Origin: Candidatus Chlorohelix allophototropha
Lineage (GTDB): Bacteria; Chloroflexota; Chloroflexia; Chloroheliales; Chloroheliaceae
Length of the DNA: 64,000 bases
Direction of reading: 5' to 3'
Assembly (NCBI RefSeq): GCF_030389965.1
Contig: NZ_CP128399.1
Span: 992,001 to 1,056,000, forward strand
Part shown: piece by piece, positions 7,392-59,394 of the stretch
Numbering within the stretch: the first letter of the stretch is position 1
Layout: each line of letters starts with the position of its first letter
Translations under genes and position numbers: made by a program
Notes under the pieces: generated by a model
What the model was told of the DNA's origin: nothing
Seen by the model: only the letters and a program-made list of their open reading frames with translations
The model's database searches: none

Positions 7392-7393
7392 GG

Positions 7394-8521: not shown

Positions 8522-8589
8522 AACCCATCCATCAGAATGCCTCCTTTGCTACTATAGGTTCACGCTTTTTTGATTGGTAGGGATTATTT

Positions 8590-31498: not shown

Positions 31499-33082
31499 CT
31501 ACTTTTTAACTGTGGCGTTATATTCATCCAATTGTTCATTGGACTTTTTGGCAGCATCATCTAACAATTGCTTGGCAGTACCGCCTTTGGTTATCAATTG
31601 ATCAACCGCCGCTTCGATGTTTTGGCGAGTTGAGATGAAAGTGCCGAAAATCGCTCCAGCAGTCGGGAAGCCGGAAGGGGAAGCCCGCAACTGGTCAACC
31701 GCAACCTGGAACTGCGGGTATTTAGCTAGCGTGTCCTTCATATCCTGTACATTGTAAGCTGCCTTACGAATAGGATAGTAGCCGGTATTAGCTGAGAAGA
31801 ACGCCTGGATTTCGGGCTGGGAGGTAAACTTCACGAAATCCCATGCGGCTTCTTGTTGTTCTTTGCTACCTTGGTCGGTAATCCACAGAGAAGCGCCACC
31901 AATAGCTACGCCACCGGTAGAACCTGTAGGACGTGGCAAGTAAGCAACGCCCACATCTACACCCTTACCTTGGGTTTGAGCGCTACTGATATAACCGCGC
32001 AAACTGGCGATACTATTAAAGGTAATGGCAGATTCACCAGTTACAAAAGAAGCATCGCGAGCCGATCCATTGGCAGCTATGCCGCTATCACGCCCGAAAT
32101 ATTTTGCCGAACCATCATCCACCAGCTTCTTTAGCAAGTTTGGATAATTAGCGCCCGCATCACTGTTGAAAACGAGTTTTGTAGCACGAGTCTCGCGTCC
32201 GTTAGTAGGGTCGGCGAAAAGGGCGTTCTGAAGCGCCAGTTGCTGTTCGAAAATCCAGCTATACATAGTGAATCCGGCACCGAATTGGGTTGTTTTGCCG
32301 CTGCTGTCCTTCTTAGTCAACTTCTTGGCAGCATCGATTACTTCATCGTAAGTCCAGATACGTTTTTCGGTATCCAGACCGGCTTCCTTGAAAGCAGCCT
32401 TGTTGAAGTACATCACCGGGGCAGAAGTATTGAAAGGCATCGAATAGAGTTTGCCCCCAACAGTGTAGTAGTTACGTACTGCGGGTTCAATGTCACTGAT
32501 AAGATCAAGTTTATCACGATCAATAAAATCCTGAACAGGTAAAACGCGCTTGGAATCGATCATACGCTGTGTACCGATGTCGTAAATCTGTACCACGCTG
32601 GGCAAGTTGCCACCTGCCTGAGAAGTATTGAACTTGTTCAAGGTAGCATCGTAATCAGGCTGTTGAATTGCTTCAACATAATATTTGGTCTGGCTGCTGT
32701 TATACTTGTTTACAACTTGCTGTGTAATCGCACCATTGACCCCGGTTAAGCCAAACCAGAAAGTGATTTTTAGCGAACCGGCGGGTTGTGCGACGGTCGG
32801 ATAAGGAGTAGCGGTAGGAGCAGGTGCAGCCGCAGTGGTAGCACCTGCCGCAGTGGTAGCAGCGGAAGCGGTTGTTGCCGCCGCAGTAGTCGCGGCAGCC
32901 GCAGTGGTAGCAGCCGCAGCGGTCGTCGCACCTGCCGCAGTAGTAGCAGCAGCGGTTGTTGCCGCCGCAGTAGTAGCAGGCACAGGAGTAGCGGTACTGT
33001 CACCGCAAGCCACCAGCATAGCAGCCATCATTATGATAACCACTGCCAGCGAAATTGATTTCCACGATTTCCTAATCTTCAA
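31499..33082 (-). CDS. Sugar ABC transporter substrate-binding lipoprotein
   Basis: A cluster-B (UgpB/MalE-like) binding protein. The likely start is TTG at 33082 behind AAGGAGAG, giving 527 residues; upstream in-frame starts would put 32 extra residues before the signal peptide. The signal peptide SISLAVVIIMMAAMLVAC ends in a lipobox with Cys26. An Ala/Thr linker of about 65 residues follows. The binding domain has KITFWFGLTGVNGAITQQVV, YSMPFNTSAPVMYFNKAAF and a GASLWITDQGSKEQQEAAWD block. Last gene of a three-gene transporter operon that lacks an ATPase gene, as is common when a shared MsmK/UgpC-type ATPase is used. Confidence 0.9.
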   Translation of the reverse strand: MKIRKSWKSISLAVVIIMMAAMLVACGDSTATPVPATTAAATTAAATTAAGATTAAAATTAAAATTAAATTASAATTAAGATTAAAPAPTATPYPTVAQPAGSLKITFWFGLTGVNGAITQQVVNKYNSSQTKYYVEAIQQPDYDATLNKFNTSQAGGNLPSVVQIYDIGTQRMIDSKRVLPVQDFIDRDKLDLISDIEPAVRNYYTVGGKLYSMPFNTSAPVMYFNKAAFKEAGLDTEKRIWTYDEVIDAAKKLTKKDSSGKTTQFGAGFTMYSWIFEQQLALQNALFADPTNGRETRATKLVFNSDAGANYPNLLKKLVDDGSAKYFGRDSGIAANGSARDASFVTGESAITFNSIASLRGYISSAQTQGKGVDVGVAYLPRPTGSTGGVAIGGASLWITDQGSKEQQEAAWDFVKFTSQPEIQAFFSANTGYYPIRKAAYNVQDMKDTLAKYPQFQVAVDQLRASPSGFPTAGAIFGTFISTRQNIEAAVDQLITKGGTAKQLLDDAAKKSNEQLDEYNATVKK

Positions 33083-33161
33083 AACGATCTCTCCTTCTTT
33101 GCATAATACGGTCATTGACAGCCAACCTGCCTGTAATTTTGGAGTCAACCTCCCCGTTGTT

Positions 33162-34034
33162 TTAACCTTTAAGCGCACCCGCGGTCAAGCCCCGCACTAA
33201 TTGGCGTTGACCGAAAATGAGCAGTAGCAGCGTTGGTAACATAACGATAATTGTTGCCGCCATTTGTAGATTGTAAACCGAAATTTCGGAAGACCTGAAA
33301 ACTGTAATACCGACCTGAGTGGTACGCCATTCAGGGGCATCTATTACCAGCAAGGGCCAGTAATATTGGTTCCAAGTATTCAAAAAGGCATAAACCGCCA
33401 GAGTTCCCAAAGCAGGGCGCGATAATGGCAGCAATATAGACCACAGATAGCGAGTACGCCCACACCCATCTATAATAGCGGCTTCGTAAAGGTCACGAGG
33501 GATTGTCATAAAATACTGGCGCATCAAAAAGATACCAAAGCCGGATGAAAGAAACGGTGCCACCAAACCTTGATAACTATCTTTCCAACCCCAGTTTGAA
33601 ATAGTCAAATAGTTGGTAATAATTGTAGATTCCCAGGGTATCATAAGTGTCCCCAGAAATATAAAGAAGAAAAGGCTTCTACCCGGAAAATTAAGGGTTG
33701 CCAGCGCGTATCCCGCCAGCGATGAAGTAATAAGTTGTCCGAGTGTAACCAGAAGTGACACCACAAAAGAGTTGAGAATCCAGCGTCCTAAGTTTTTTTC
33801 TATTTTAAAGGCATCCCCGAACGCGGAGAAATCCAATTTACTAAAATCTGGTATTAATGTCGGCGCAATTGTAGGACCTTGCAATGCCAGCGAAAATGAG
33901 AAAAATAGCGGGAACAGCACAATAAGCGATGCCATTACCAACAAGATATAAGTCGCTATTTTTTTGATTAGGCGAATTATCTGATATGCCCCGGAATAGG
34001 CATCCGTTTTAAGCAGCTTAGTTTGGGCGCTCAT
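33162..34034 (-). CDS. Sugar ABC transporter permease (MalG/UgpE-type)
   Basis: A 290-residue inner-membrane permease with six membrane segments and the cytoplasmic EAA loop YEAAIIDGCGRTRYLWSILL that docks the ATPase. It overlaps the upstream permease gene by four bases (coupled translation) and precedes the binding-protein gene by 79 bases. Sugar specificity cannot be read from it; genes nearby act on beta-linked and amino sugars. Confidence 0.92.
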   Translation of the reverse strand: MSAQTKLLKTDAYSGAYQIIRLIKKIATYILLVMASLIVLFPLFFSFSLALQGPTIAPTLIPDFSKLDFSAFGDAFKIEKNLGRWILNSFVVSLLVTLGQLITSSLAGYALATLNFPGRSLFFFIFLGTLMIPWESTIITNYLTISNWGWKDSYQGLVAPFLSSGFGIFLMRQYFMTIPRDLYEAAIIDGCGRTRYLWSILLPLSRPALGTLAVYAFLNTWNQYYWPLLVIDAPEWRTTQVGITVFRSSEISVYNLQMAATIIVMLPTLLLLIFGQRQLVRGLTAGALKG

Positions 34035-35044
34035 TGATAATGCACCTTCCTGTCCAACGATTTGAACTGAATAAAGGTCAGTACAAGTAAGACCACAAAC
34101 AGCACCACCGATAATGCGGAGGCAAAGCCGTAGCGGTTATCTTTCCAGAAGGCAGTAAAAATAGTGTACACCAGCACGTTGGTAGTGCCGTCGGGACCTT
34201 CATTACCTACTAATACGTTGAACTGAGTGAACGCTTGGAAGCTGGAAATAACCGAAATGACAAACAGGAAAAGTAGCGTAGGGGTTAATAATGGCAGCGT
34301 AATAAATCGAAATGCCTTCCAACCACTTGCGCCATCTATGAGACCACTTTCGTATAAATCCTGCGGGATTGCCTGAATACCCGAAAGGGTAATAATAAAG
34401 TTAAAGCCTAGCGAAGACCAAATAGTCATAAAAGCCACTGCCGGTAATGCGGTTAGCGCATCATTAAGCAAAGTGGTGGACTTGATTTGAAGGAAATCAA
34501 TAAGCCATTGGGTTACTTTTACGTTTGGGCTATAGATTAAAGACCAAATGACCGCGGCACTAGCCACAGAAATTGCCACGCTGCTGGTAAAAATCGTGCG
34601 GAAAACGCCTATTATCCGCACTTTAGCAGTTGCCAGAACCGCTAATGCCAGCGAAGCGACAACCCCAAATGGCACTACCATAATAGTAAAAACGATAGTA
34701 GTCCAAATACTACGCAAGTATTCGGATCGCCCGCTATCGTCCAAATTCAGAATGCGTGAGTAGTATTTTACATCGTTAAATTTAACCGGGTCGCCTCTAG
34801 CATCCGTAATAAAAAAGCTAAGGTAGATTGCTCGGAAAAATGGAACATAAGTGAAAGCTATAAATATTATCAAGGCAGGTAGCATGTAAAGCATCGCCCA
34901 AGCAAACTCAATCCGGCGATTTCGCGCCATATTGCGTTTTTCTTCAGGAGTACGCTCAGGCACAATCATTACAGGCTCGCCATTTGCGTTAGCCACTGTC
35001 CCTTTTCCATGCACCTCAGTAGAATTATCCTGTTTTATACTCAT
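34031..35044 (-). CDS. Sugar ABC transporter permease (MalF/UgpA-type)
   Basis: A 337-residue permease, first gene of the transporter operon. An N-terminal cytoplasmic tail of about 45 residues precedes six membrane segments; the EAA loop reads YESGLIDGASGWKAFRFITL. Pairs with the downstream permease as heterodimer. The 150 bp before it hold a perfect 22-bp palindrome that may be its operator. Confidence 0.92.
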   Translation of the reverse strand: MSIKQDNSTEVHGKGTVANANGEPVMIVPERTPEEKRNMARNRRIEFAWAMLYMLPALIIFIAFTYVPFFRAIYLSFFITDARGDPVKFNDVKYYSRILNLDDSGRSEYLRSIWTTIVFTIMVVPFGVVASLALAVLATAKVRIIGVFRTIFTSSVAISVASAAVIWSLIYSPNVKVTQWLIDFLQIKSTTLLNDALTALPAVAFMTIWSSLGFNFIITLSGIQAIPQDLYESGLIDGASGWKAFRFITLPLLTPTLLFLFVISVISSFQAFTQFNVLVGNEGPDGTTNVLVYTIFTAFWKDNRYGFASALSVVLFVVLLVLTFIQFKSLDRKVHYQ

Positions 35045-42731: not shown

Positions 42732-43874
42732 CTAATTATAGAGAATTTCCCCATTCACCAGCGTCATTAGAGTCTCAAAATTGTCGGGCTTGAAAACTGC
42801 TATATCTGCATCATAGCCTGCTTCAAGCCGTCCTTTACGCTTATCAATACCAAGTAAACGCGCCGGATTCAGGGAAGCCATTCCCACCGCTTCGGCGACA
42901 CTACAATCGGTATAGACAATCATATTGGCAATCGCTTGGTTTAAAGTCAAGATACTACCGGCAAGAGTTCCGGCAAAATTAGCCAGCCTTGCCGTTTTGT
43001 CGGTCACTATTACTTCCTGTCCACCCAGCACGTATTTACCCGGAGGCATGCCCATGCCAGCCATCGCATCTGTCACCAGTAGAATATTTGCTGCGCCCTT
43101 CAAGCGATATACCAGCCTTACTATACCGGGATGGAGGTGTATTCCATCTACTATTATTCCGCAAAAAGTATCTTTGGCTGCCAGAGAAACCCCCACGATA
43201 CCCGGTTTGCGATGGTGTAAGGAGGGCATGGCATTGAACAGGTGAGTAACCAGTCTGATGCCAGATTCAAAAGCCACTAGACCTTCTTCATAAGTTGCAG
43301 CGGTATGCCCCGCCGACACTATTATCCCTTTTTCATGCAACCAGTTTGCAACTTCCAACGCCCCCACCAATTCCGGCGCAAGGGTCATCAATTTCAAGCA
43401 GTCACCAGCGCATTCCCATAAACGGTGCGTTTCTTCCAGTGAAGGGTGACGTAAGAAAGTTTCTTCGTGCGCCCCTTTGTAGCGTGGATTTAGGAAGGGT
43501 CCCTCAATATGTGCGCCGAGTGGGATTGCTCCTTTTGTAGTTGCCGCATTTGCTTTAAGCCATCCCAAAGCCTCAAAATAGGTTTCAATTGGGGCAGTAA
43601 TATAGGTAGGTAGAAAGGCAGTAACACCCCAACGTGGTAAGGCTTTAGCCACTTCTCCCACGCTATTCGGCTGCTGGGTAAAATCAAAACCAAGCCCACC
43701 GTTTATTTGCATATCAATCAAGCCGGGGCATACATAGCTATCGGGAAAAGAATAATCGGCTTTTAAACCCTCGCCATACTCACAGCCCTGAATTTTACCG
43801 TCGGAGATTGTGAGCCTGCCGGCGCGAAAGCCCTCTTCTGTCCAAAGTTGACCGCTGATTGAAAATTCCTGCAT
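42732..43874 (-). CDS. nagA: N-acetylglucosamine-6-phosphate deacetylase
   Basis: A 380-residue amidohydrolase. Visible are GLIDMQINGGLGFDFTQ, the metal site Glu in LGAHIEGPFLNPRYKGAHEE, VSAGHTAATYEEG, THLFNAMPSLHHRKPG, VDGIHLHPGIVRL and the catalytic Asp in VTDAMAGMGMPPG. Splits acetate from GlcNAc-6-P to give GlcN-6-P. Its ATG overlaps the stop of the upstream hexosaminidase gene (TAATG). It is the last gene of the four-gene salvage operon; no nagB is in the window. Confidence 0.95.
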   Translation of the reverse strand: MQEFSISGQLWTEEGFRAGRLTISDGKIQGCEYGEGLKADYSFPDSYVCPGLIDMQINGGLGFDFTQQPNSVGEVAKALPRWGVTAFLPTYITAPIETYFEALGWLKANAATTKGAIPLGAHIEGPFLNPRYKGAHEETFLRHPSLEETHRLWECAGDCLKLMTLAPELVGALEVANWLHEKGIIVSAGHTAATYEEGLVAFESGIRLVTHLFNAMPSLHHRKPGIVGVSLAAKDTFCGIIVDGIHLHPGIVRLVYRLKGAANILLVTDAMAGMGMPPGKYVLGGQEVIVTDKTARLANFAGTLAGSILTLNQAIANMIVYTDCSVAEAVGMASLNPARLLGIDKRKGRLEAGYDADIAVFKPDNFETLMTLVNGEILYN

Positions 43875-45433
43875 TATACTTCCTCTAGCCGTACCGGCAA
43901 CTTACCAACAGGGGTTAACTTACCAAGCAAAACCTCTGCCAATGCCCTGATCGAGCATGGAGGATCGCCAAAAGTGGCAAGACATGCTGCCGCATCTTTG
44001 GTGAGATTCAACTCGTAGGGGTCTCTAGCTGCTACCACCACCGTATGGGGCTGAATTTTGATCAACTCCTTCAATGCCCAAGCCTGTGACTCATTCCTTG
44101 CCGCATTGCGGGCAAGTATAGTCAGATTGTCGGCTGTACTTGCCAAGTGGCAAGCAAGCGCAATCTGCTCAGTAGAAGGTTGAGCAGGTAGCTTTAAATA
44201 TCGCAAGTTCTCCCAGTGGTCGGAAAGCAATGTGCGGAGCAAGAGGGTAGCCTGCCTACCTTCTTCAACCGGAGAAGCGGATGGTAGCGTAAATTCTATA
44301 ACCGCAGGATTTTCAACATGCACGCCAAAGCGGAAACCCGACCGAACCGAAACCAACGTTAGGCTCTCTCGCGCCACCTCAAGGATTGTTTGAGCATCCA
44401 ACGCTTCCTGATATAGGTCGTCTAGCGAATAAGCTCTCTGCTCAGGCTTACAAAAACGCTCTTTGAAAGACAATACCCGTTGCAAGCCTTCCTCAAGTTC
44501 AAAAGCATTTTCAGAAGCAGCGCTCACCATTTGGCGAATAGTGTCGCGTTGGATTTCCATAGTAAAACACGGCAAAGCAACATCTGCGCCTGCTCGCAAA
44601 GTTGCAAGGGCTGATTCGGCAGGGGTGTAGCGTTCGGCAATCGCTTTCATATCAAGCGCATCGGTGAAAACCAACCCACCGAATCCAAGCACTTCGCGTA
44701 AAAGTTCGGTCAGAAATTTCCGGCTTAAGGTAACCGGAACAGCCTGTTCCAAAGCCGGAAACATAACATGGGCAGTCATCAGCGCCGGAACGTTAGCAGC
44801 GAAGGCACGCCGGAAAGGGATAAGCTCTACCGCGTCCAAGCGTTCGCGGGTGTGCGAAATAACCGGCAAGCCAAAATGACTATCCACGCCGGTATCACCA
44901 TGCCCCGGAAAATGTTTTACGCAACTGCCAATCTCGGCAGCGTTATACACTTCTATTGCGGCTGCCACCATCTCCGCCACAATAGCAGAGTCGCTACCGT
45001 AACTGCGGCTACCTATTACAGGGTTGTGGGGATTATTATTTATATCTGCTACAGGTGCAAAATTGAGGTTGATGCCCATACGTTGCAAGCGTCTCGCCGT
45101 TACTCCGGCGGCAGCGCGTACTGCATCAATTCCAGCGGAGGCTTGTGCCATTTGGCTTGGCGCAATCCACGGTGAACCATCCGCGCTCATACGGCTAACT
45201 CTACCGCCCTCCTCATCAATCGCGATAATAAAAGGAGGCAACCCGTTTTGGACGGCTAAATCTTGCAAATTTGTTGTAAGCGCAGCTACCTGCTCGATGC
45301 TTTTTATATTGCGACCGAATAAAATAACTCCACCGGGGCGACACTCCAGCAACCAATCCCGCAAAGTAGGATTCAATTCAATTCCATCGAATGCTACCAC
45401 AAAACGTTGACCGACTTTTTCAAGCAAGTTCAT
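43874..45433 (-). CDS. nagZ: Beta-N-acetylhexosaminidase, GH3 (NagZ-like)
   Basis: A 519-residue GH3 enzyme. The TIM barrel has FIIAIDEEGGRVSRM, VKHFPGHGDTGVDSHFGLPV (the His-Asp dyad region that serves as acid/base in NagZ) and VFTDALDMKAIAERY with the nucleophile Asp. It is longer than E. coli NagZ (about 340) by a C-terminal alpha/beta domain, as in Bacillus-type NagZ. No signal peptide, so it likely releases GlcNAc from anhydro- or plain muropeptides in the cytoplasm. Four bases after the kinase gene. Confidence 0.93.
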   Translation of the reverse strand: MNLLEKVGQRFVVAFDGIELNPTLRDWLLECRPGGVILFGRNIKSIEQVAALTTNLQDLAVQNGLPPFIIAIDEEGGRVSRMSADGSPWIAPSQMAQASAGIDAVRAAAGVTARRLQRMGINLNFAPVADINNNPHNPVIGSRSYGSDSAIVAEMVAAAIEVYNAAEIGSCVKHFPGHGDTGVDSHFGLPVISHTRERLDAVELIPFRRAFAANVPALMTAHVMFPALEQAVPVTLSRKFLTELLREVLGFGGLVFTDALDMKAIAERYTPAESALATLRAGADVALPCFTMEIQRDTIRQMVSAASENAFELEEGLQRVLSFKERFCKPEQRAYSLDDLYQEALDAQTILEVARESLTLVSVRSGFRFGVHVENPAVIEFTLPSASPVEEGRQATLLLRTLLSDHWENLRYLKLPAQPSTEQIALACHLASTADNLTILARNAARNESQAWALKELIKIQPHTVVVAARDPYELNLTKDAAACLATFGDPPCSIRALAEVLLGKLTPVGKLPVRLEEV

Positions 45434-45437
45434 ACGT

Positions 45438-46364
45438 TCACTCCACTTCTTGTGCCAACGCTACTGCTGCTGCTAACGCCGGTTCAGGCACTTGCACGAT
45501 TTTATCCAGTTGAATTTGCGTCCTTAGTAGCGCTTCAACTCTGGCAAGCAGTACCGGGTGATTTAAAATTACCCCACCCGCTACTGCCAGTGAAGGCGAC
45601 CCAGAAAATTCTAGTTTGCGATAAACCGCTTTTACAATTAAAGCTAGTTCTTCCGCCGCTTCTTCGATTAATGCCACCGCGGTTCTATCGCCTGCTGTGG
45701 CAGCTTGAAACACCAGACCCGACAAGCGGGCGATGCGGGCATTATCTACACTGGGGTTGGTATAAACTGCCCCGATTAACTGAGAGGCGCTTGCCAAGTT
45801 CCATTCTCGCAAAACTAAATCCAGCAGCAAGGTTTCAGGTTCACGCCCATCTTCCATACGCGCTGCTTTTTGTAGAACCGCGCGCCCGAACCATAAGCCG
45901 CTGCCCTCATCCCCGAAGAAATGTCCCCAACCACCGGCGCGAGTACGATTTCCAGTATGGTCACGCCCGATTGCAATTGAACCGGTGCCGCAAATCAGGC
46001 ACAACCCGATTGAATGCGGTAGCGCCGCCAGCACCAGTTCCCCATCATTTCCAAACAACATCTCGCGCGCTTGCGGAGAATCAAGCTCGGCAGTTTTTTG
46101 CTTCCAGATTTCTTGGTCATCAGCGCGATCAAGACCGGACAAACCCAAATAGATTTTATCCAGTACAACGGTAGCAGGTGACAGGTTTGCAACTGAGCAT
46201 GCCTCCAGCAAAGCCTTTTTAACCGCCGTTACCGCTTTCTCTAGTCCAAGTGCCTGATAATTCGAGCCTGCTGAAACGCCCCGCCCAAGTTCTTGCCCGC
46301 TCTCATCTACTATTACCACCAGAGTTTTACTGGCTCCGCCATCTACCGCCGCAAAATAGCGCAT
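45438..46364 (-). CDS. BadF/BadG-type amino-sugar kinase (GlcNAc/MurNAc kinase)
   Basis: A 308-residue ASKHA-fold kinase. The phosphate-1 loop YFAAVDGGASKTLVVIVDES, the adenosine part LCLICGTGSIAIGRD and the GGWGHFFGDEGSGLW motif are those of eukaryotic-type GlcNAc kinase and of clostridial MurK. Between murQ and nagZ it most likely makes MurNAc-6-P for MurQ and GlcNAc-6-P for NagA, which would explain why only one kinase is needed. Gaps to neighbours are three and four bases. Confidence 0.88.
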   Translation of the reverse strand: MRYFAAVDGGASKTLVVIVDESGQELGRGVSAGSNYQALGLEKAVTAVKKALLEACSVANLSPATVVLDKIYLGLSGLDRADDQEIWKQKTAELDSPQAREMLFGNDGELVLAALPHSIGLCLICGTGSIAIGRDHTGNRTRAGGWGHFFGDEGSGLWFGRAVLQKAARMEDGREPETLLLDLVLREWNLASASQLIGAVYTNPSVDNARIARLSGLVFQAATAGDRTAVALIEEAAEELALIVKAVYRKLEFSGSPSLAVAGGVILNHPVLLARVEALLRTQIQLDKIVQVPEPALAAAVALAQEVE

Positions 46365-46367
46365 CGC

Positions 46368-47297
46368 TTAGTCTGCCTCTTTTAATGCCAATCGCACCAC
46401 ACCACTGGTTCTGGCAAGTCTTTCGGCTGCCTGATTCGGGCTAACCCCTGCCAACGCCGCTACAATTGCTACTTTTGTTTCTCCATTACAACGCTCCAGC
46501 AAAGTGGTAGCTTCTACTTCTGGTAACCCGGTGCAATCAATTACTATCCGCACCGCCCTGCGCCGGAGTTTGGCATTGCTGACACGTACATCTACCATCA
46601 AATTGCCGTAGGTTTTGCCCATTAATGTCATAGCCGCAGTTGACAGCATATTCAGCACCATTTTCTGGGCTGTTCCGGCTTTAAGACGGGTTGAACCGGA
46701 AACTACTTCGGGACCCGTAACAGGCGCAATATTGATTTGTGCTAACGCTTCCAAAGGGGTGGATTTATTGCAGGCTAGCCCGATAGTGAATGCGCCACAA
46801 CTACGGGCGTATTCTAGCGCACCCAAAACGTAGGGGGTACGCCCACTGGCAGTAATTCCCACCACCGCATCGTTCGCGTTTAGCTGAACCTTAATCAAAT
46901 CCTGTTTACCCAGCTCGGCATTGTCTTCGGCTTCTTCCACCGCACTGGTTAGGGCAATCTCTCCACCAGCGATAATGCCGATAACCATTGATGGCGGAGT
47001 ATTAAAAGTAGGTGGGCACTCGGACGCATCCAACACGCCAAGTCTACCGCTAGTTCCCGCTCCGATATAAATCAGCCTACCACCCTTTTTGAAACGTTCT
47101 ACAATTTCTTCTACCGCACGGGCAATTGAGGGTATTCCCAACTTAATAGCCTGAGCCACCAAGGCGTCTTGATTATTAATTATTTGCACTATTTCAAGTG
47201 CGCTCAAGGTGTCGAGATTAGAGCTTTCCTGATTGCGCCCTTCTGTTGCTAGATTATCGCTATCACGTGCGGATTCTTCTATGTATTTACCTTGCAT
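46368..47297 (-). CDS. murQ: N-acetylmuramic acid 6-phosphate etherase
   Basis: A 309-residue SIS-domain protein: YIGAGTSGRLGVLDASECPP binds the sugar phosphate, EDNAELGKQDL carries the catalytic Glu of MurQ, then GITASGRTPYVLGAL and GSTRLKAGTAQKMVLNMLST. Cleaves the D-lactyl ether of MurNAc-6-P to give GlcNAc-6-P, the NagA substrate. First gene of the operon murQ, kinase, nagZ, nagA, with a promoter-like pair upstream at 47345-47373. Confidence 0.96.
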   Translation of the reverse strand: MQGKYIEESARDSDNLATEGRNQESSNLDTLSALEIVQIINNQDALVAQAIKLGIPSIARAVEEIVERFKKGGRLIYIGAGTSGRLGVLDASECPPTFNTPPSMVIGIIAGGEIALTSAVEEAEDNAELGKQDLIKVQLNANDAVVGITASGRTPYVLGALEYARSCGAFTIGLACNKSTPLEALAQINIAPVTGPEVVSGSTRLKAGTAQKMVLNMLSTAAMTLMGKTYGNLMVDVRVSNAKLRRRAVRIVIDCTGLPEVEATTLLERCNGETKVAIVAALAGVSPNQAAERLARTSGVVRLALKEAD

Positions 47298-47373: not shown

Positions 47374-47384
47374 GCATACAAAAA

Positions 47385-47415
47385 AACCCTCGTCCGGTTA
47401 AACCAAACGAGGGTT
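47385..47415. terminator. Terminator after bciB
   Basis: AACCCTCGT and ACGAGGGTT pair over a 13-base loop that can add two inner pairs (CGGTT/AACC). A and T runs flank both sides, so it works toward the left for bciB and could also act toward the right. Confidence 0.85.
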
Positions 47416-47431
47416 TTTCTAGAACAGAAAT

Positions 47432-48637
47432 TTACATGCCGTATCGCTTGAGAACGCGCTTCGCAAATTCAGGCACAAGTTTGTCTTCGTGTTCCGAGAA
47501 ATTCTTGCGAATATGATCAAGGTTGCGCGCCCACTTCATAGTGAGAGTACCGCGGGCAAAATTGATGCCCTTCAAACCGCGATGCCTTACCACGAAGGTA
47601 AGAAGTTTTGCGCCCCATTTCGGCAATTTGCGGGGTGGCTTATTTAGCATATCTACCGAAAGTTGGACGGCACGATGGTAATCGCCCTTTTCAACCAACG
47701 GCGTAAATTCCAAGTGCGGACGCAGCATTTCGAATAGCTCTTCGCCAACCTTAGTACGAACAGTGATCCATTGGAAGGGCATCGTTGCGCCCAAATAACC
47801 TATCGTTATATCCGAAAGAGCATTGGCGTAGTCAAAGCAACTCAGGCAACTATCCGGGAAAATATCCGCACCCATCTTGTCCAAGTCCAGTTCGAAGAAG
47901 CCGATTTTCTCGATATGTCCATCCTCATGCTTCATCCAGACGCGATAATCCGGCATAAACTCAAGGTGAACTACCGTAGTAGGTGACTCCGATACCACAT
48001 CAAGGAACTTGTTCCACTTCTGATAAGTCACTACATCGGTACAGGGCAAGCCCAGAAAGTAGATTTTGTCAAAGGGCAGAGTCTCTTGAATAGAACGCAC
48101 AGCATGCGTTTGGCAACCGTTACCGATAAAGGCAATTCGTTTAAGCCCTCGCTTTTCGGCTTCTTCGATAGCGGAAACGTTTTGGGATAGGCAGGGCTTG
48201 TTCCCTTTTGCCGCAATTATTTCTTCAACGGTGGTAGCAACTCTAGGCTGGGGTTTAAAGCGAGTGCCGGGTACATTATCTACCACGATTACGCCGTCCA
48301 CCATATTATTTTTCAGCAGCATACTTGCCACTGTACTCATAATGCCGGTCCACTGTGCGCCTTCTATCGGCTGTTTCAAGCGGGCAGCGTACATGTGCTG
48401 GAAAATGCCAAACATATCCTCATCAGAACCGGGTTGTCGCCCCCGACCATGTACTCGCTGCTCAATTTCTTCGTAGCGATTCCCTACAAAGACACAAGCA
48501 TCCACCAATTGTTCGCGGCGGTTTGAATAGCAAAGACCACAGCGACTGCACATCAATGGTTTGTCAAGGCGGTTTGAAGTAGATTCGCCCTTGCGGGAGA
48601 CCTGAATTAATGGATTCTGCTCGTAAGTCTGGCTCAT
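47432..48637 (-). CDS. bciB: 3,8-divinyl (proto)chlorophyllide 8-vinyl reductase, BciB type
   Basis: A 401-residue iron-sulfur flavoprotein of the FrhB family. The match to BciB and plant HCAR is close along its length: PLMCSRCGLCYSNRREQLVD, RVHGRGRQPGSDEDMFGI, GAQWTGIMSTVASMLLKNNM, LKRIAFIGNGCQTHAVRS, VVHLEFMPDYRVWMKHEDGH and SCLSCFDYANALSDITIGYL. The four Cys groups (CSRCGLC, GNGC, SCLSC) would hold two [4Fe-4S] clusters beside FAD. BciB reduces the 8-vinyl group with reduced ferredoxin during (bacterio)chlorophyll synthesis. Generic FrhB-like reductases are the alternative, but they lack the HGRGR and GAQWTG blocks. Stands alone with its own terminator. Confidence 0.82.
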   Translation of the reverse strand: MSQTYEQNPLIQVSRKGESTSNRLDKPLMCSRCGLCYSNRREQLVDACVFVGNRYEEIEQRVHGRGRQPGSDEDMFGIFQHMYAARLKQPIEGAQWTGIMSTVASMLLKNNMVDGVIVVDNVPGTRFKPQPRVATTVEEIIAAKGNKPCLSQNVSAIEEAEKRGLKRIAFIGNGCQTHAVRSIQETLPFDKIYFLGLPCTDVVTYQKWNKFLDVVSESPTTVVHLEFMPDYRVWMKHEDGHIEKIGFFELDLDKMGADIFPDSCLSCFDYANALSDITIGYLGATMPFQWITVRTKVGEELFEMLRPHLEFTPLVEKGDYHRAVQLSVDMLNKPPRKLPKWGAKLLTFVVRHRGLKGINFARGTLTMKWARNLDHIRKNFSEHEDKLVPEFAKRVLKRYGM

Positions 48638-48903: not shown

Positions 48904-49386
48904 CTACCAATTTGTCCCCTCTAAGGGCATTACATGCAAACGTCGCGCATATTCCTGTACCGCGCGCTCCTGCTCCTTGATTTCAATCGAACCAGGACGA
49001 ATCCGCCTTATCTCCGCGATTGCTTGAGAGGCGCTCATACCGCGATGTACCAAATAGCAAGCCAGTATAGTACCGGTTCTGCCATAACCGGCGCGACAAT
49101 GAATCAGCACAGGCTCTAGACGCTGTATTCGTTTCTCAATAAAGTGGACGAGCTTTTCAATCTGTTCAACTGTAGGCGCGCTAAAATCGGGAAGTGGCAA
49201 ATGCTTGTGCATTATCTGGTATTTTTGAAGTAAATCGGGGCGTGGGCTTTTTTGGGACAAAGAAACGATGGCACGAATACCCTGTTGATGCAAAAATAGG
49301 AGGTCTTCATCCTCTTTACCGCTTCCACCCGGAAGAGCGCTACCCGCCAGTTTCCCTTCGATTACCCAACCCCAATTTTCCAGCAT
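48904..49386 (-). CDS. Dual-specificity protein phosphatase
   Basis: A 160-residue Cys-based phosphatase. The P-loop is [20 protein letters not shown] (HC-x5-R-T-G) and the general-acid Asp is in [18 protein letters not shown]. The start [18 protein letters not shown] is that of the DUSP23/YvcJ-like small group, which act on phosphotyrosine, phosphoserine or small phosphate esters. Monocistronic. Confidence 0.88.
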
Positions 49387-50663: not shown

Positions 50664-53318
50664 TTACATGCGCGTGCCTTCTATCCTGATACCGAATTGA
50701 ACCAGTAATAAGGGTGAAGGAGCGGTAAAACGCAAGGAGATTTGCCCGGTACTTGGATTAGTAAAGCGCATCGGGTTATCGATTTCATTGGGCAATACCG
50801 GAAGAGCAGAGTTCGGGGTTGTGCCTGAACCGCTGCTAGCGGGTGCGCTATTTTTCAGCCCATTCAGCACTACCCAATCATTTTGCTGCCAATCGAATAA
50901 TTCTACTTTATCCGGTAAAAAGGGGGTGCGACTGGAATTCGCAGTGAAAGAATTCAGAATCAAAACCATCCGGGTTGTTTTGAAATTCAAATTATCAACC
51001 GGTAACCGATAGTTATTCACCACCGTACCGCGTGAGAGACAAATCTGATCGGAATGTTCAATCTTACTGGTGGGGATAGGAGCACCCTGATCATTATAAG
51101 AATTTTCAGGATACATATAGCTGGAAGGTATCAGGATTTTGCCTTGTTCAAGCGGGTTTTCCACCGAAACTGGCAGCCGTGATAGTAATACTTGATTCGA
51201 GCGCGGTAAAGTAGTCACGCCTGCTACATTTAGCGGAACAGGGTTATTATCTACCCAACCGATAAAATCAAAACCTCTGACAGGGTTTGTAAGGCTATAC
51301 CTTCCGATCTCATATATTTTACGCAAGAAGGCTGCCCTGTTCTGGTAAAGCTTATCATTCTGGTGATCAGCTTGTAGTAGGTTTTGCATCTTTTCGCCAA
51401 TGGAAGTGTTATTGTATCCAGTAAAGTTTCCAAACCCCTGTGTGCAAAATGAGGTCACTAACTGATTTTCAGGCGGTAAAGGGAAATCCACCTCAAGAGT
51501 TTCGCCGGGTTCAATATCTTTTACTTTTTGAAGCTGATCGCCCATCGCCAGCATAATTCCTCTTATTGGCTGACCAATAGTATTTGTTACCGCGCCTTTA
51601 ATATGGATTTCGCCATTTTGCTCGACAAAATACAGATTACTTTGTAATTGATATTGACGAGCAGGTACAAGTGCCTCCACACTCACTCCTTGCGCACTCC
51701 ACTGACGCACATTGAGTTGCTCAACCCGGGGCTGATCACCGCTTACCACGTAACGAACATTGTCCTGATCACTTATGGGAAAAGCAATATTACGGTTTAG
51801 CGGTAAAAGCAGAGGGGGCGCAGCGCTATCTGGAAGTACCGGATCAACTTCATACAGATTGTCGTTAGGCGAAAAAAGAGCAGCGTAACTGCGAACCTGA
51901 GCATTTGTCTGTCCGGGTGAAACCTGTATCACACTCATTTCACTAATTAATACATCACCTGATGGCTGGTTAAGGCTAAGCCACACCGCAATACTAAAAA
52001 ATACTATGCCGGTTATTGGCAAAGTTAGCCAAGCCCACACAAGTTTTTTCAGTCGAACTAACACAAGGTAGTTGAGCGGACAAACTACCAATAAATAAAT
52101 ACCAAAAAGTATAAAGAAAGAAGTTATATTAGGAAGCGGCACTTCGGGTATATTGCCTACATACCCAAAGAAATCGGAGTTATTTTTGAGATGGGGATTA
52201 GTATCATCATAAATCTGGTAGTAGATGCCACTGTTAAAACTAAAAATATCCTGCCAAGCTTTGGAACTTCCAGCCCAATCTGCCAACGGGTTGGTTGTTA
52301 AATCCATAGCAGTAGCTACAATCCTGCCCATTCCCCTAATACGCGCTGCTACTAAAGGAATCACACTTGACCCTGAATTAGAATTGGTAAGCGTAAAAGT
52401 GGTTAAGGGCTTTGCGCCTTGCAATACCTGACCTACCGCAATTGTCACAGGCTGGGATAGCGGGAGTTTATCATTTTCTTCTGCCAAAAGTGCGTTAAGA
52501 TTATCTACTTTCTGGTAATCATACACATCTATAGGCAATAATTTCGGATCAAAGCCGCTACTGACTTTATTCCAGCCATTCCCGCCCATCAAAATTAGCT
52601 GACCACCGGAGTTTACCCAATCCATTAAGGCATTTTGTTGGTCTGCGCTCAAACCACTGCTATTAGTATCACTCAAAACCAAGGCATTAAAAGAACGCCA
52701 GCCATCTGCCCGATCAGGGAAATCTGCCGGGTTAAGGTTAATTATATCGACCCTAGAATTCAATTTTCCCACTCTCATGTTATTCATATAGCTTACCAAA
52801 CTAGGGTCACTATTAATAACACCAACCAAATAATCCTTAGGGCTAATCGGTAGAAGGCGTACATTCTGCGCGAAAAGTGTGCGTTCCCCATCGGCAGTTT
52901 TTAGCTGGATTGGCTGTTCATAACTGACAAAGCGGGAAACGTTGCTATTAGCTACATAGGGCTGGAAATAAATGTGGAATTTCTTGACCGAACGCTCTCC
53001 TAAAGTAATCGGTCGTCTGAAAATAGTGGGGAAATTTGTGCTATTTACGGTATTGGTAACTACCGTTTCAATTTGAACTGAGGTAGCTGCCCCAAAATTT
53101 TCTAGAGTAATCTCAATCGGAAGCCAATCCCCGTATTTGTAAGCTCCATCAAACATTGAACGAGCTGTCATTTTCACATTATATTCGAATTGCTGGTTAG
53201 GTTGTGCTAGACTTTTATCCCCCTGAGCGGCAGTTACGATTCCCACGCCGCCGAAAACGAAAACGAAAACTATACCGAATAACCAAACGGCACGGCTGAA
53301 AAAGTAGAGATGGCGCAT
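50664..53318 (-). CDS. Large membrane-anchored protein, paralogue 2 (unknown function)
   Basis: An 884-residue protein with a signal/anchor (AVWLFGIVFVFVFGGVGIV), a beta-rich exterior region (about 40-180), and a flavodoxin/GATase-like part with FNALVLSDTNSSGLSADQQN and WVNSGGQLILMGGNGW. Near 395-450 come two membrane segments (FFILFGIYLLVVCPLNYLVL and a second), then another long beta domain to the end. Same architecture as the gene 26 bases upstream. Such proteins recur in Chloroflexota and some other phyla, and I know no assigned function. Confidence 0.7.
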   Translation of the reverse strand: MRHLYFFSRAVWLFGIVFVFVFGGVGIVTAAQGDKSLAQPNQQFEYNVKMTARSMFDGAYKYGDWLPIEITLENFGAATSVQIETVVTNTVNSTNFPTIFRRPITLGERSVKKFHIYFQPYVANSNVSRFVSYEQPIQLKTADGERTLFAQNVRLLPISPKDYLVGVINSDPSLVSYMNNMRVGKLNSRVDIINLNPADFPDRADGWRSFNALVLSDTNSSGLSADQQNALMDWVNSGGQLILMGGNGWNKVSSGFDPKLLPIDVYDYQKVDNLNALLAEENDKLPLSQPVTIAVGQVLQGAKPLTTFTLTNSNSGSSVIPLVAARIRGMGRIVATAMDLTTNPLADWAGSSKAWQDIFSFNSGIYYQIYDDTNPHLKNNSDFFGYVGNIPEVPLPNITSFFILFGIYLLVVCPLNYLVLVRLKKLVWAWLTLPITGIVFFSIAVWLSLNQPSGDVLISEMSVIQVSPGQTNAQVRSYAALFSPNDNLYEVDPVLPDSAAPPLLLPLNRNIAFPISDQDNVRYVVSGDQPRVEQLNVRQWSAQGVSVEALVPARQYQLQSNLYFVEQNGEIHIKGAVTNTIGQPIRGIMLAMGDQLQKVKDIEPGETLEVDFPLPPENQLVTSFCTQGFGNFTGYNNTSIGEKMQNLLQADHQNDKLYQNRAAFLRKIYEIGRYSLTNPVRGFDFIGWVDNNPVPLNVAGVTTLPRSNQVLLSRLPVSVENPLEQGKILIPSSYMYPENSYNDQGAPIPTSKIEHSDQICLSRGTVVNNYRLPVDNLNFKTTRMVLILNSFTANSSRTPFLPDKVELFDWQQNDWVVLNGLKNSAPASSGSGTTPNSALPVLPNEIDNPMRFTNPSTGQISLRFTAPSPLLLVQFGIRIEGTRM

Positions 53319-53344
53319 ATTACTACCTTTATTGCAAATCTTTA

Positions 53345-56032
53345 TTAGGTGAAGTTTTGACCTTCAACCCCTATATTTAACTGTTGTAAAATTATAATTT
53401 CCTGATTGGAAGCAAGGCGAAGACGTATTGTGCCTAAGTTGCGGTCAATATAATCGTTTAAATCTGGCATGGTCAAATCAATCCGGTTACGGTTATCTCC
53501 AACCTGACTAACTTCCACCCATGAATTTTTCGCCCAATTAAATAGCTCAATTCGAGGGTTATACTGGTAGGTTGTGACAGGTTGCGGATCACGCCAACCA
53601 GAAATAGATTGGCTATTACCAAAAATTGAACTGCGCTCACGTTCTCTAAAAGAGTTAATATAAATCGATAAAGTGGTTGGTAGGTATCTGGGAAAGGTTA
53701 ACCCACTTGGTAATTGATACTGAAAAGTTGAAGGGCTTTGCCCAATAATCGCTACATTGTTATTAGACCCGGTAGTATCGGTTAATCTCTCAGGAATCAG
53801 AGTGTACGATGGAATAATAAGCTTATTGTTTGCTTCCCCATATGAAAGTGGTAAAGGGCGAATTATCAAGGCGCTATCCTGCTGAGCAACTTTCATGCCG
53901 AGTATTTGGGCTGAGCCAAGTATCGGGCTACTATCCAGCCATCCGGTTAAATATAATTGAGTTGCGCGCTCGTCTGGAATAAAACGACCAGATTGATAGG
54001 CAACATTTAAAATATTCCAGTGAAGCGAGCCTAAACGCGCATCATGGCTGTTGCCCGAAAACCAGGGGTTTTGTGAACCAGCCAAACGCACAGAAGATTC
54101 AGGGTTAGTTTGCAGGTAAGAAAGCGGCACATAAATATTTGAGTCTATAGCCGGGCGTGGTGTTAAGGTGGGACGACGAGTAATAGTAAAGCTAATTTTT
54201 CTCTCATCATTTGGGTTTATCTCTCCCAAATTTAGGTAATTATCTCCATACATCAGTACCGCTTCTGAAAGGTGATAGTTCCCTTTATTTACCAGTGTCC
54301 CGTTAATATTTCCGTTATCAATAGTAAATTTACCTTCAAGACCAAGCCTTAAATCAGTTATGCCCTCTCCCGCAAAACTTTGCAAACGACTATTTGAGTC
54401 GGCATTCTTTATTGAAGCATTTGTTGAGCCTTCTACCAATACTTGAGGAGGCAGGAAATTAACTTGGGAAGAAATGGAAAGAGGCTGCGGTCTGAGCAAA
54501 GACTGCGTCCCTTCCAATTCGAGCTGATATGGAGAATCGGAGGAAGAAGAAACCAGCATATAGCTTTTTACAGCGGCAGGTAATTCATCGCTGGTACTTT
54601 CAATCAAACTCACCCTGCTTAAATGTACATCTCCGGCAGGTGTAAATACTGCAAAAATTGCAGTAATGATGGTGAATACTACCACAAAGCACGGCGCTAC
54701 AAGCCAAAACAACTCAAGACGGCTAAATCTACGAAGGATAAGATAGCTAAACGGTACGACCAATGCCACATATAGCAGCATAATACCCAACAAACTATAT
54801 TCGTCTGGAAGGCTGGGTCCGGGTGCATTTAGCAATGCCCGTCCGATTCCATCCTGACTAAAGAAATTTTGAGTGGCACGGTTCAATGTGAAATTGGGGT
54901 CTGCCGCCAGAATTAAATTTGCCCAGACAAAATTTACCCGATTCCAATTGCTGAGGGGTTGCACTAATAAATCAGCTGCACCCATAGTAATTGAGCCTTG
55001 ACCAAAAGGTCTGGATACAACTAAAGGCAAATCGGCTTCGGGTAATCCGACATCCTGCCGACTTGCGATGAACGCATTGGGATTGGGAATAAAACGGCTA
55101 ATTTCAAGATTAAGTGTTCCGGGTACTTCCAACGCTTGATCAGCAAGGTTGGACTTAAAAGAGAGATGATTTACTACCAGCGTAGAATTTGTCATGGCAG
55201 GCAGCAAATTAGTATCCAAACCTACAGAGGCAATCAGCGAAGGAAGGTTAGAACCCCCGAATAGAATAAGTTGACCACCATTGGCAACCCAAGCTTGCAA
55301 AGCCCGCCTTTTTTCAGCTGTAAATGTATCCGGCTTTATATTTGAAATGACTAGAGCGTTAAGTGGATCAAATTGTTCTTTCCTATCACTCATCTCTACA
55401 GATTGCAAACCTAGCCCTCTTATACCCACCGAGTTACCACGTATCGGGGTAAAACCAATACGTGGAATATCAGGTGGCGTGGGTGAGTCATTTAAAATAC
55501 CTACTATAAAATCTGAAGCAGAAATCTGTTGCAAGCGATGCTGATTCTGAGCTATCAGCTTACCCTGAGAATCATAAAGCCCAACGGTTATATTATTATT
55601 ACGAGTGGTTGGTTGGATATAGTGAAAATATATTTGGCTTTGGTTGGGCGTCAAACTTACCGGAGTAACAAAGCTGAAATCACTGCTTACCGCATTGACG
55701 AGTAGACTAAAATTCGAGCGAATTTCACCTTGAAAAGGATTATTCCCATTGGTAATTTCAATAACTATAGTAGCCCAACCATTCTCACGGTATAAGCCAT
55801 CCACCAGAGGATGTGATTTAAAAGAAGTTATTGGAGATTTATCGTTAGCGGCAGGAGTTTGGGCGAGTACAGTTCGAGGTAAAAACAAACCGATAATTAA
55901 GGAAAGTATCAAAATAAACGCACACACATAAAAAAATAGAACTACTTTTCGTACTCTAATGCTTTGAAAGTATAAGGATTTTAGCCCTGCTCCTATTACG
56001 TTTACGGGCTGCGGTAAACTCGGTAACTGCAT
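53345..56032 (-). CDS. Large membrane-anchored protein, paralogue 1 (unknown function)
   Basis: An 895-residue protein with a hydrophobic segment near 25-55 (VCAFILILSLIIGLFLPR), a beta-rich exterior region, the same LNALVISNIKPDTFTAEKRR and WVANGGQLILFGGSNL block, membrane segments near 410-475 (LLGIMLLYVALVVPFSYLIL and a second) and a long beta-rich C-terminal half. It is similar in plan but not close in sequence to the next gene; an old tandem duplication. Promoter at 56080-56108. The G-G-Q-L-I-L-x-G-G block suggests a class I glutamine-amidotransferase-like fold without the catalytic Cys. Confidence 0.7.
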   Translation of the reverse strand: MQLPSLPQPVNVIGAGLKSLYFQSIRVRKVVLFFYVCAFILILSLIIGLFLPRTVLAQTPAANDKSPITSFKSHPLVDGLYRENGWATIVIEITNGNNPFQGEIRSNFSLLVNAVSSDFSFVTPVSLTPNQSQIYFHYIQPTTRNNNITVGLYDSQGKLIAQNQHRLQQISASDFIVGILNDSPTPPDIPRIGFTPIRGNSVGIRGLGLQSVEMSDRKEQFDPLNALVISNIKPDTFTAEKRRALQAWVANGGQLILFGGSNLPSLIASVGLDTNLLPAMTNSTLVVNHLSFKSNLADQALEVPGTLNLEISRFIPNPNAFIASRQDVGLPEADLPLVVSRPFGQGSITMGAADLLVQPLSNWNRVNFVWANLILAADPNFTLNRATQNFFSQDGIGRALLNAPGPSLPDEYSLLGIMLLYVALVVPFSYLILRRFSRLELFWLVAPCFVVVFTIITAIFAVFTPAGDVHLSRVSLIESTSDELPAAVKSYMLVSSSSDSPYQLELEGTQSLLRPQPLSISSQVNFLPPQVLVEGSTNASIKNADSNSRLQSFAGEGITDLRLGLEGKFTIDNGNINGTLVNKGNYHLSEAVLMYGDNYLNLGEINPNDERKISFTITRRPTLTPRPAIDSNIYVPLSYLQTNPESSVRLAGSQNPWFSGNSHDARLGSLHWNILNVAYQSGRFIPDERATQLYLTGWLDSSPILGSAQILGMKVAQQDSALIIRPLPLSYGEANNKLIIPSYTLIPERLTDTTGSNNNVAIIGQSPSTFQYQLPSGLTFPRYLPTTLSIYINSFRERERSSIFGNSQSISGWRDPQPVTTYQYNPRIELFNWAKNSWVEVSQVGDNRNRIDLTMPDLNDYIDRNLGTIRLRLASNQEIIILQQLNIGVEGQNFT

Positions 56033-56931: not shown

Positions 56932-58088
56932 TCAATTTAAGAGCTGCGGAAGCAAAATAGGAGGACTATTAAGCAGCTGAAAACTGGAGGGTTTGGATTT
57001 TTTCCTATCCAAACGACAGCCTTTTTGCATACTAGCACAAATATAAATCAATTCTTGCAATAAGTGGGGCGGATTATCAATACGAAACAGTAAGCTGCGG
57101 GCGTGTGCTCGCACAATACGACTAGCCTTGATGAGACTGCGTTCCGCCTCTTGCCACACCCCTGCCAGCACTAACCAGTGCTGAATAATTTGCCCAATCA
57201 GTTTGGCATATATTTCGCATAATATCGCCCAAGGCTTGTGGCTATGCCAGCGTTCCAATCCACCCCCACTTTTCCACAATTTGAAAAGAAGTTCAATCTG
57301 CCAGCGTAACCGATACAATACTGCCACTTCTGCGGGACTAGCCTGCTCCTGCGATAGATTGGTTAGATACACACTCCAGTAGCTTAAGGCTTGACGTTCG
57401 GCGCTGACCGGACGCTGCTGCTTGCGTGCCAACTCCTTGAAAGCCTGCTGACGAGTTTGTACTACTCCAGAAGGTACTTGCCATGCCACTAACCGACAGC
57501 GCAAACGTTCTTTTACCCCCACCTCTACTACCCTATCTATCAGCTTTTGTGACTGCTGTCCCAACCATTTACTCAAAGCTAAGGGTTGTTGGTGCGCCCC
57601 GTACACTTGTAGTCCGGTTTGAGCTTTGGTTAGGTACAATACCGCTTGCGCTTCTAATTCTTTCAATCGTCCCAATTTGAAATAGCCTAAATCGGTTATC
57701 CGTAGCGCCCCCGCTGGTAAACTTAGCTTTTGATGCGGTCCTTGCCGATCGTGCAGACGGGCTGGACTTAATTCCGGTCCCAGTAGCGCCCCGCTTAGCA
57801 GTTCCAAACCCACGTGCAGTTTCAGACCAGCCTCACTTTGACTACCCTCTTTCCCACACCCTTGCCAATGGGCGCTCAAGGTTGGCGGTAAACTGATAGT
57901 CGAACTATCCAGTACATACACCCCTTTGAAGCGTTGCAGTAGGCTCAAACTCGCTGGTTCCTGCCCTAGCATTTTTTCTACACACCAACCTAACAAAGCC
58001 TGTAAATAACTTGCCGCTTGGCTTGTAAAACTCTGGTCAAGCGCTTGTTTGCTAACCTTGGCTATTTGTGCCAGTTCACTCCGTATAA
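56932..58088 (-). pseudogene. IS4-family transposase truncated at its N-terminus
   Basis: The DDE core is present: VYVLDSSTISLPPTLSAHW (D1), ALRITDLGYFKLGRLKELE (D2) and VLYRLRWQIELLFKLWKSGG with Y-(2)-R-(3)-E-(6)-K. The N-terminus is cut by the IS3 element at 58088; only RSELAQIAKVSKQALDQSF of the first domain remains, and the present start lies in foreign sequence. Different from the IS4 element at 5008-6428. Non-functional or doubtful. Confidence 0.8.
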
Positions 58089-59394
58089 TGAACCAGAAGA
58101 ACTGAACAACTAAAAAGGGTTTGGTAAGGTGTATACTTAAAAACATGACAACACCTAGAAAAAAGTATTCACCCACATTTAAGTCTCAAAGAGTGCAAGA
58201 AGTGCTGGAAGGTAATAAAACCCTTACCCAGATAGCTTCTGAATATGGTATTCATCCGAATATGCTCACTAAATGGAAACAACTGGCTCTAAAAGGTCTG
58301 CCACAATCCTTTGATGAGCGTACTCAGAAGCAAATCGCGCTGCTGACCGCACAGTACGAACAAGAAAAAGAACAACTTTACGCCGAAATAGGTCGCCTGA
58401 CTACACCGCTCAGGTGGTTAGGAAAAAAAGTGAAGCAGGCTTTGCCCAGGTCGGTCAGATTAAGCCTAATCGAAACCCAAAAAGCTGAACTTTCACTCTC
58501 AAAACAAAGTGAGTTGCTAGGAATTAGCCGTTCCAGTTTGTACTACCGCTCAGTAGCACCAACCGAACGAGAAATTGAGCTCAAACACCGAATTGATGAG
58601 ATTTACACCGTTTACCCTTTTTATGGATATCGGCGAATTCATCAACAATTACTGCGGGAAGGCAAGCACCTCAACCGCAAAACGGTGCAAAACTATATGC
58701 GGGAGATGGGGCTAGAAGCAATCTATCCTGGTCCTAATCTTTCGAAACGAGATCAAAAGCAGCGGGTATATCCCTATCTCTTAAGGAACCTGGCTATAAC
58801 CAGACCCGCTCAGGTATTCGGTACCGACATCACATATATCAAGCTCAAACACGGTTGGCTTTATCTGGTGGCTGTCATCGACTGGTACAGCAGATATGTG
58901 GTAAGTTGGGAATTATCTGATACTTTGGAAATCGATTTTGTGCTTAGAACTACCGAGCGAGCGTTGGCGAAGATAAAACCGGAGATCTTTAACAGTGACC
59001 AAGGTAGTCATTTTACCAGTCCTAAATACACTGCTTTGATATTGGGCGCAGGTGTAAAGTTAAGTATGGATGGACGTGGGCGAGCACTAGATAATGTTTT
59101 CACCGAAAGGCTCTGGCGTTCCTTAAAATATGAGTGTGTTTATTTAGCACAATTTGAGAACCCCAAAGAAGCAAAGCTAGGGATTGGTGAGTATTTCGAT
59201 TTCTACAATAATACTCGACCTCATCAGGCTTTGAAATATCAGACACCGGCTCAGGTTTATTTCAATACCGTGACACCAGTAATTATGTTAAAGAGCTAAA
59301 AAGAGTTACTAGCTATTTAACATTATTAGTTCTATAGAAAGGACTGTATCACTCCTTAACCAAGCTTTTATTTTTGTCTTGACAAACTGGGTCA
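58089..59394 (+). mobile_element. IS3-family insertion sequence, structurally complete
   Basis: Ends TGAACCAG (58089) and CTGGGTCA (59394) are inverted, and similarity goes on inward for about 48 bases (AAAA, TTGGT-AAGG and GTATAC or GATAC blocks). TG..CA tips and 1,306 bp fit IS3. No target duplication, and the truncated IS4 does not resume on the right, so a deletion followed insertion. Confidence 0.75.
58145..59299 (+). CDS. IS3-family transposase, OrfA and OrfB in one frame
   Basis: One 384-residue frame: OrfA helix-turn-helix YSPTFKSQRVQEVLEGNKTL and GIHPNMLTKWKQ, leucine-zipper part, then OrfB with SKQSELLGISRSSLYYRSV, the DDE residues in QVFGTDITYIKLKHGW, IFNSDQGSHFTSPKY and NVFTERLWRSLKYE, and NNTRPHQALKYQTP. 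ATG 58145 is preferred over TTG 58121. Members normally need a -1 shift at an A6-7G run to join OrfA and OrfB; such a run (A7G, 58423-58430) is here, but the zero frame is already open through it, so full transposase needs no shift. Confidence 0.88.
   Translation: MTTPRKKYSPTFKSQRVQEVLEGNKTLTQIASEYGIHPNMLTKWKQLALKGLPQSFDERTQKQIALLTAQYEQEKEQLYAEIGRLTTPLRWLGKKVKQALPRSVRLSLIETQKAELSLSKQSELLGISRSSLYYRSVAPTEREIELKHRIDEIYTVYPFYGYRRIHQQLLREGKHLNRKTVQNYMREMGLEAIYPGPNLSKRDQKQRVYPYLLRNLAITRPAQVFGTDITYIKLKHGWLYLVAVIDWYSRYVVSWELSDTLEIDFVLRTTERALAKIKPEIFNSDQGSHFTSPKYTALILGAGVKLSMDGRGRALDNVFTERLWRSLKYECVYLAQFENPKEAKLGIGEYFDFYNNTRPHQALKYQTPAQVYFNTVTPVIMLKS

Follow-up and report, generated by a model that had tools for sequence, protein, structure and literature searches.

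A probable bciB gene for bacteriochlorophyll C8-vinyl reduction, separated from bchL, in Candidatus Chlorohelix allophototropha

Can one gene, standing alone in a stretch of bacterial DNA, be assigned to pigment synthesis and so reveal a phototrophic host? We asked this of a 64,000-nucleotide window (that is, the whole stretch analysed, C1:992001-1056000) from the genome of Ca. Chlorohelix allophototropha L227-S17. An earlier note, made from the sequence alone, had picked out a single open reading frame as bciB. It took the gene as the sign of a chlorophototrophic organism. The features of the locus are listed in Table 1. Our analysis indicates that the gene product is very probably BciB, which in this organism would catalyse the ferredoxin-dependent C8-vinyl reduction step of bacteriochlorophyll synthesis.

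Table 1. Position and description of bciB and other features of the window
Feature	Coordinates	Strand	Description
ABC sugar importer	31499..35044	-	Binding protein and two permeases; 69, 78 and 67% identity to L227-5C genes
nagA	42732-43874	-	TIGR00221 over cut-off
NagZ-like GH3	43874-45433	-	199.3 v cut-off 207
BadF/NagK-type kinase	45438-46364	-	NagK model 104 bits, cut-off 370
murQ	46368..47297	-	N-acetylmuramic acid 6-phosphate etherase; TIGR00274 386.5 bits, cut-off 302
Hairpin	47379..47421	-	20 pairs, terminator-like, 3' arm ending in U tract; between bciB and murQ, about 10 nt after the bciB stop codon
bciB	47432..48637	-	401 aa, ATG start; BciB/HCAR family; predicted from relatives to be a FAD / two-[4Fe-4S] ferredoxin-dependent 8-vinyl reductase
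Dual-specificity phosphatase-like gene	48904..49386	-	Upstream neighbour of bciB

The protein contains FrhB_FdhB_N and FrhB_FdhB_C domains according to Pfam. Its nearest relative in the PDB is Arabidopsis HCAR (5dqr, E 2.4e-85), with homology over nearly the full length. F420 enzymes come next (best FrhB E 3.4e-16, others weaker). The predicted fold gave the same ranking. Briefly, an AlphaFold2 model of moderate quality (mean pLDDT 68.4, pTM 0.74) was compared with known structures using Foldseek. The top six matches were the six 5dqr chains, with query TM values of 0.83-0.84. F420 enzymes followed, at TM 0.62 or below.

We placed the protein in a maximum-likelihood tree of BciB, HCAR and FrhB-like proteins, as the earlier note had proposed. 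The tree has 63 rows and holds no green sulfur (Chlorobiota) or cyanobacterial BciB, HCAR standing in for that side. A branch with 100/100 support parts the window protein and its BciB/HCAR relatives (53 rows) from the FrhB-like rows (10). Hence, the window protein falls inside the BciB/HCAR family. Its neighbour in the tree is a full-length protein from L227-5C, with 64-65% identity. The bciB gene has a GC content of 0.485 (window, 0.46) and a GC3 of 0.525 (nine other window genes, 0.349-0.471). We considered recent horizontal gain, for which these values are somewhat raised, and set it aside. The L227-5C orthologue argues instead for inheritance within the family.

The earlier note had rested on two sequence blocks, HGRGR and GAQWTG, said to be shared by BciB and HCAR and absent from plain FrhB proteins. 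We inspected these in an alignment of 63 rows (53 of the BciB/HCAR family, query included, and 10 FrhB-like). Two of the rows are identical to each other, and there are three or more further pairs of near copies (L070/L097, L069/L088, L041/L093), so a count such as 53/53 is of rows and not of independent lineages. Rows L070 and L097 are partial; L104, a match that was not reproducible, was dropped before the tree. Both blocks are present in the window protein, at residues 63-67 and 93-98 respectively, and none of the 10 FrhB-like rows contains HGRGR, GAQWTG or the looser AQW[ST]G. However, each exact string occurs in only 3 of the 53 family rows. For HGRGR these are the window protein, L227-5C and Arabidopsis HCAR; for GAQWTG they are the window protein, Thiodictyon syntrophicum and HCAR. 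Seven Chloroflexales rows have HGRNR in place of HGRGR. The blocks therefore tell BciB/HCAR proteins from FrhB, but in their exact form they are not family-wide. By comparison, AQW[ST]G is found in all 53 family rows.

Single residues make the same division. W96 and D201 are invariant in the 53 family rows; the FrhB-like rows have D at the first column (10/10) and E (eight) or K (two) at the second. From its motif position, D201 probably equates to D197 of Synechocystis Slr1923. At the column of C149 in the window protein, HCAR has T. Eight cysteines are also invariant across the family. These would fit two [4Fe-4S] clusters, with C30, C33, C36 and C48 as ligands of one and C175, C199, C264 and C267 as ligands of the other. 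By column counts, the first four are also found in 8/10 FrhB-like rows and the last four in 10/10. The two exceptions are gapped at the N-terminal columns and are presumably the two PDB FrhB segments. Hence, the cysteines alone do not define the BciB/HCAR family.

How might the enzyme work? According to PMC13297055 and PMC7242693, BciB of Chloroherpeton thalassium holds FAD and two [4Fe-4S] clusters and takes electrons from ferredoxin. Through HCAR and the Chloroflexales BciB, we place the window protein in the same family as this enzyme and Slr1923, whose FAD and two-cluster architecture (PMC13297055, PMC7242693) is matched by the eight retained cysteines. Proteins of Chloroflexus, Oscillochloris and Chloroploca are 44-48% identical to it over most of its length and share its invariant residues. 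In Chloroflexus aurantiacus, BciB is listed among the most abundant Bch enzymes at day 12 or 14, the first phototrophic growing phase (PMC9316378). By analogy, reduced ferredoxin would pass electrons to the two [4Fe-4S] clusters of the window protein and on to FAD. The flavin would then reduce 3,8-divinyl-(proto)chlorophyllide a at its 8-vinyl group, which becomes ethyl. The product, 8-ethyl chlorophyllide a, would serve above all the BChl c branch. This branch is taken to diverge upstream of the step catalysed by chlorophyllide a oxidoreductase (COR), which in BChl a makers is the alternative 8-vinyl reductase.

If the gene is bciB, the host should be a phototroph, and the earlier note had suggested a search of the assembly for bch and reaction-centre genes. 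The genome comprises 6,086,194 bp in 5 contigs; C1, of 2,961,161 bp, holds the window. We found BchL (401 bits, cut-off 345), BchU over its cut-off, CsmA and FmoA. There was also a partial match to PF00223, the PsaA/PsaB family of type I reaction centres, in a 616-aa frame (34.2 bits, cut-off 23.3). PF00124, which represents the type II reaction centre (RCII), had no match in the genome. Hence, the gene had pointed to the right kind of organism, and one already published. The 2024 description in Nature gives 2.96 and 2.45 Mb chromosomes, a 375-kb chromid and 241- and 55-kb plasmids (PMC10972752). Section 7 of that paper reports a full gene set for making BChl a and BChl c, and its section on phototrophic gene pathways names BChl a, BChl c and possible Chl a. 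The term bciB has no occurrence in its main text.

Two arrangements in these genomes are recorded here as side observations. The PF00223 and fmoA matches of L227-S17 are on different contigs (G000:C1:264437, G000:C2:1376931), and those of L227-5C share a strand, with about 395 bp separating them (G002:C222:63085-65032). The third contig of L227-S17 has two BchL-like matches about 12 kb apart (C3:39841-40629 and C3:52384-53169). At 234.5 and 234.6 bits, both score under the BchL cut-off of 345, and they are perhaps BchX or nitrogenase-like proteins.

We then examined the distribution of BciB. Among 41 close genomes, full matches (at least 376 bits) occur in 9, and these are the same 9 that have BchL over its cut-off. 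Two of them match PF00223 and seven match PF00124. Two further genomes gave weak FrhB-like matches only. Among 400 Chloroflexota genomes, 39 have a BciB match (23 strong, of at least 505 bits, and 16 weak), 30 have BchL over the cut-off and 22 have CsmA. All 23 genomes with strong BciB fall within the 30 bchL carriers, so the step from BciB to phototrophy is borne out in this sample. BciB is not a general phototroph gene, however. Seven of the 30 bchL carriers are without strong BciB (G191, G236, G335, G342, G349, G354, G409; six of them in f10), and none of the seven has a CsmA or BchU match. Instead, BciB tracks the chlorosome gene csmA; it is present in 22/22 csmA carriers compared with 1/8 other bchL carriers. 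Since the genomes are related, this pattern rests on few independent events. The link is also not strict, because G371, a draft that is 93% complete, has BciB (at a contig end) but matches neither CsmA nor BchU. G236, of the same family (f6), has BchL and no match to BciB, CsmA or BchU. Chlorosome losses or draft gaps are possible explanations for this pair.

The literature offers a possible reason why some bchL carriers do without BciB: in BChl a makers COR is also able to reduce the 8-vinyl group, and Roseiflexus is reported to have neither bciA nor bciB (PMC4214422, PMC4836224). The route to BChl c runs from chlorophyllide a and bypasses COR; hence, chlorosome makers would require a distinct 8-vinyl reductase.

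Wider searches added few lineages. In the genome contig collection, a search with the single BciB protein confirmed no relative. An alignment query, consisting of two narrow peptide patterns by which other phyla would be missed, gave 112 pattern matches and from these 47 relatives at 45 loci. All 45 are from Chloroflexota or Gammaproteobacteria (Chromatiaceae and one MAG). Viral contigs gave 83 pattern matches, none of them a relative. Five plasmid records were found: Ca. Thiodictyon syntrophicum supplied one full BciB, and the other four were weak FrhB-like matches in haloarchaea.

Could the protein be a true BciB that does little in the cell, as a relict or a backup to BciA or COR? Some phototrophs, for example Acaryochloris, have two reductase types (PMC4836224, PMC7242693), and COR has the same capability. 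However, the reading frame is intact with all cofactor residues kept, its L227-5C orthologue is full-length, and every csmA carrier has BciB. We consider so minor a role very improbable.

HCAR, the plant member of the family, works in the chlorophyll cycle, and its substrate arises from Chl b. The statement in the earlier note that BciB works only in synthesis is thus too broad for the family as a whole. The window protein might itself act like HCAR, reducing a 7-hydroxymethyl (bacterio)chlorophyll intermediate and not the 8-vinyl group. Indeed, HCAR is the closest solved structure (TM 0.84), has both exact blocks in common with the window protein, and is alone with the two Chloroheliales proteins in having exact HGRGR among the 53 rows. 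All three lie together on a branch with 100/98 support, and BciB and HCAR activities are not separable by sequence alone. Against this, the HCAR branch is long (1.67), and BciB in the tree is limited to Chloroflexota and purple sulfur bacteria. A tree with bacterial BciB held apart from HCAR is not rejected by the AU test (p 0.341). Furthermore, the substrate of HCAR derives from Chl b. Sections 7, 9 and 28 of PMC10972752 name no 7-formyl pigment or 7-hydroxymethyl substrate for Ca. Chlorohelix. An HCAR-like activity is, in our judgement, very improbable.

That the protein is an F420-linked oxidoreductase subunit of the FrhB/FpoF type, unrelated to pigment, is barely credible: it does have both FrhB_FdhB domains and matches four FrhB and FpoF NCBIfam models (E 4e-27 to 1e-20), but it reaches the curated cut-off of none of them (94.9 v 269, 90.2 v 331.5, 74.9 v 475 and 73.7 v 444 bits), sits inside BciB/HCAR in the tree, differs from 10/10 FrhB-like rows at W96 and D201, and has strong matches confined to bchL carriers among the 400 Chloroflexota.

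We therefore continue with BciB as the preferred identity and turn to its place within the family. PMC10972752 describes Chloroheliales as basal to Chloroflexales for other bch genes. We do not make this claim for BciB, since the four AU tests reject none of the groupings tested. Besides the grouping apart from HCAR, these were all Chloroflexota (p 0.26), Chloroflexales alone (p 0.295) and Chloroflexales with Chromatiaceae (p 0.373). Long branches, of HCAR and the FrhB-like rows, meet in this tree. One review of bacteriochlorophyll evolution omitted C8-vinyl reductase phylogenies as unreliable (PMC7842958).

BciB of purple sulfur bacteria is 43-47% identical to the window protein (rows L038-L040, L044, L045, L047, L049-L051, L053, L055, L057, L060, L065, L068, L071, L073, L074, L150). 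These rows group with the Chloroflexales rows L070/G371, with support of 95/88. The grouping hints at a possible transfer of bciB between the two phyla, which the AU tests do not require. In Ca. Thiodictyon syntrophicum (L150, NZ_CP020372.1), bciB is on plasmid pTs485 beside transposase genes. Within about 6 kb are bchI, a magnesium chelatase D gene and bchO.

The neighbourhood of bciB in the window was also described in the earlier note, as free of other bch genes and beside a wall-salvage operon. The first point holds as far as the window was scanned. No other photosynthesis family was found by Pfam among the 35 scanned of the 40 window ORFs of at least 120 aa (the scan left out those at 7529, 13782, 21683, 50664 and 53345, and shorter ORFs), and bchL, though on C1 as well, is some 685 kb distant. 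The second holds in part. The genes murQ to nagA do lie downstream on the same strand, but a stable hairpin intervenes (MFE -30.3 kcal/mol for 70 nt, z -6.24, 0/200 shuffles as stable) and bciB is probably outside the operon. Hence, the sequence indicates that bciB is most likely its own transcription unit. The hairpin is not listed by a consensus terminator scan, probably because its U tract pairs with an A run.

The corresponding hairpin of L227-5C is weaker (z -2.43, 4/200 shuffles as stable). There, bciB and an ABC importer matching that of the window are transcribed divergently. The 9.2-kb L227-5C contig that carries bciB ends 365 bp past the bciB stop codon and gave no match to the window murQ, kinase, NagZ-like or nagA protein. 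We considered a functional link between bciB and cell-wall salvage and rejected it, since the order and strand of the importer differ in L227-5C and the hairpin splits bciB from murQ. For the same reasons, we read the proximity of bciB and the importer as loose inherited linkage.

Elsewhere in the window, integrase, resolvase and several transposase genes occur at 1492-13072, 19527-20123 and 56932-59299. A 2893-aa ORF at 22081-30762 has glycoamylase-like and GH94 domains; we take it to be of the cyclic beta-glucan synthase type. The two large adjacent ORFs at 50664-56032 (884 and 895 aa) are distantly paralogous, with 22% identity along nearly their full length (E 4e-41).

The distance between bciB and bchL differs from the arrangement in Chloroflexales. 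Of the 22 other BciB genomes, 20 have bciB ahead of bchL on one strand, the two matches being separated by 105-443 bp. The remaining two count as undecided, with both genes near contig ends in G033 and on separate contigs in G371. L227-5C likewise has bciB and bchL on different contigs.

What we report about BciB is mostly already known, and the novelty is low because the organism has been published. Our analysis adds two points: a tally, over 400 Chloroflexota genomes, of BciB relative to csmA, and the observation that bciB and bchL lie apart in Chloroheliales. Even so, a single pigment gene within 64 kb sufficed to identify its host correctly as a phototroph, and a landmark one at that. A further idea, which we regard as speculative and rather unlikely, is that BciB in this type I line uses ferredoxin that receives its electrons straight from the reaction centre. 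This would explain a bciB unit independent of bchL. If true, a BciB fed by the reaction centre would couple the maturation of chlorosome pigment to light by a route not open to the type II Chloroflexales.
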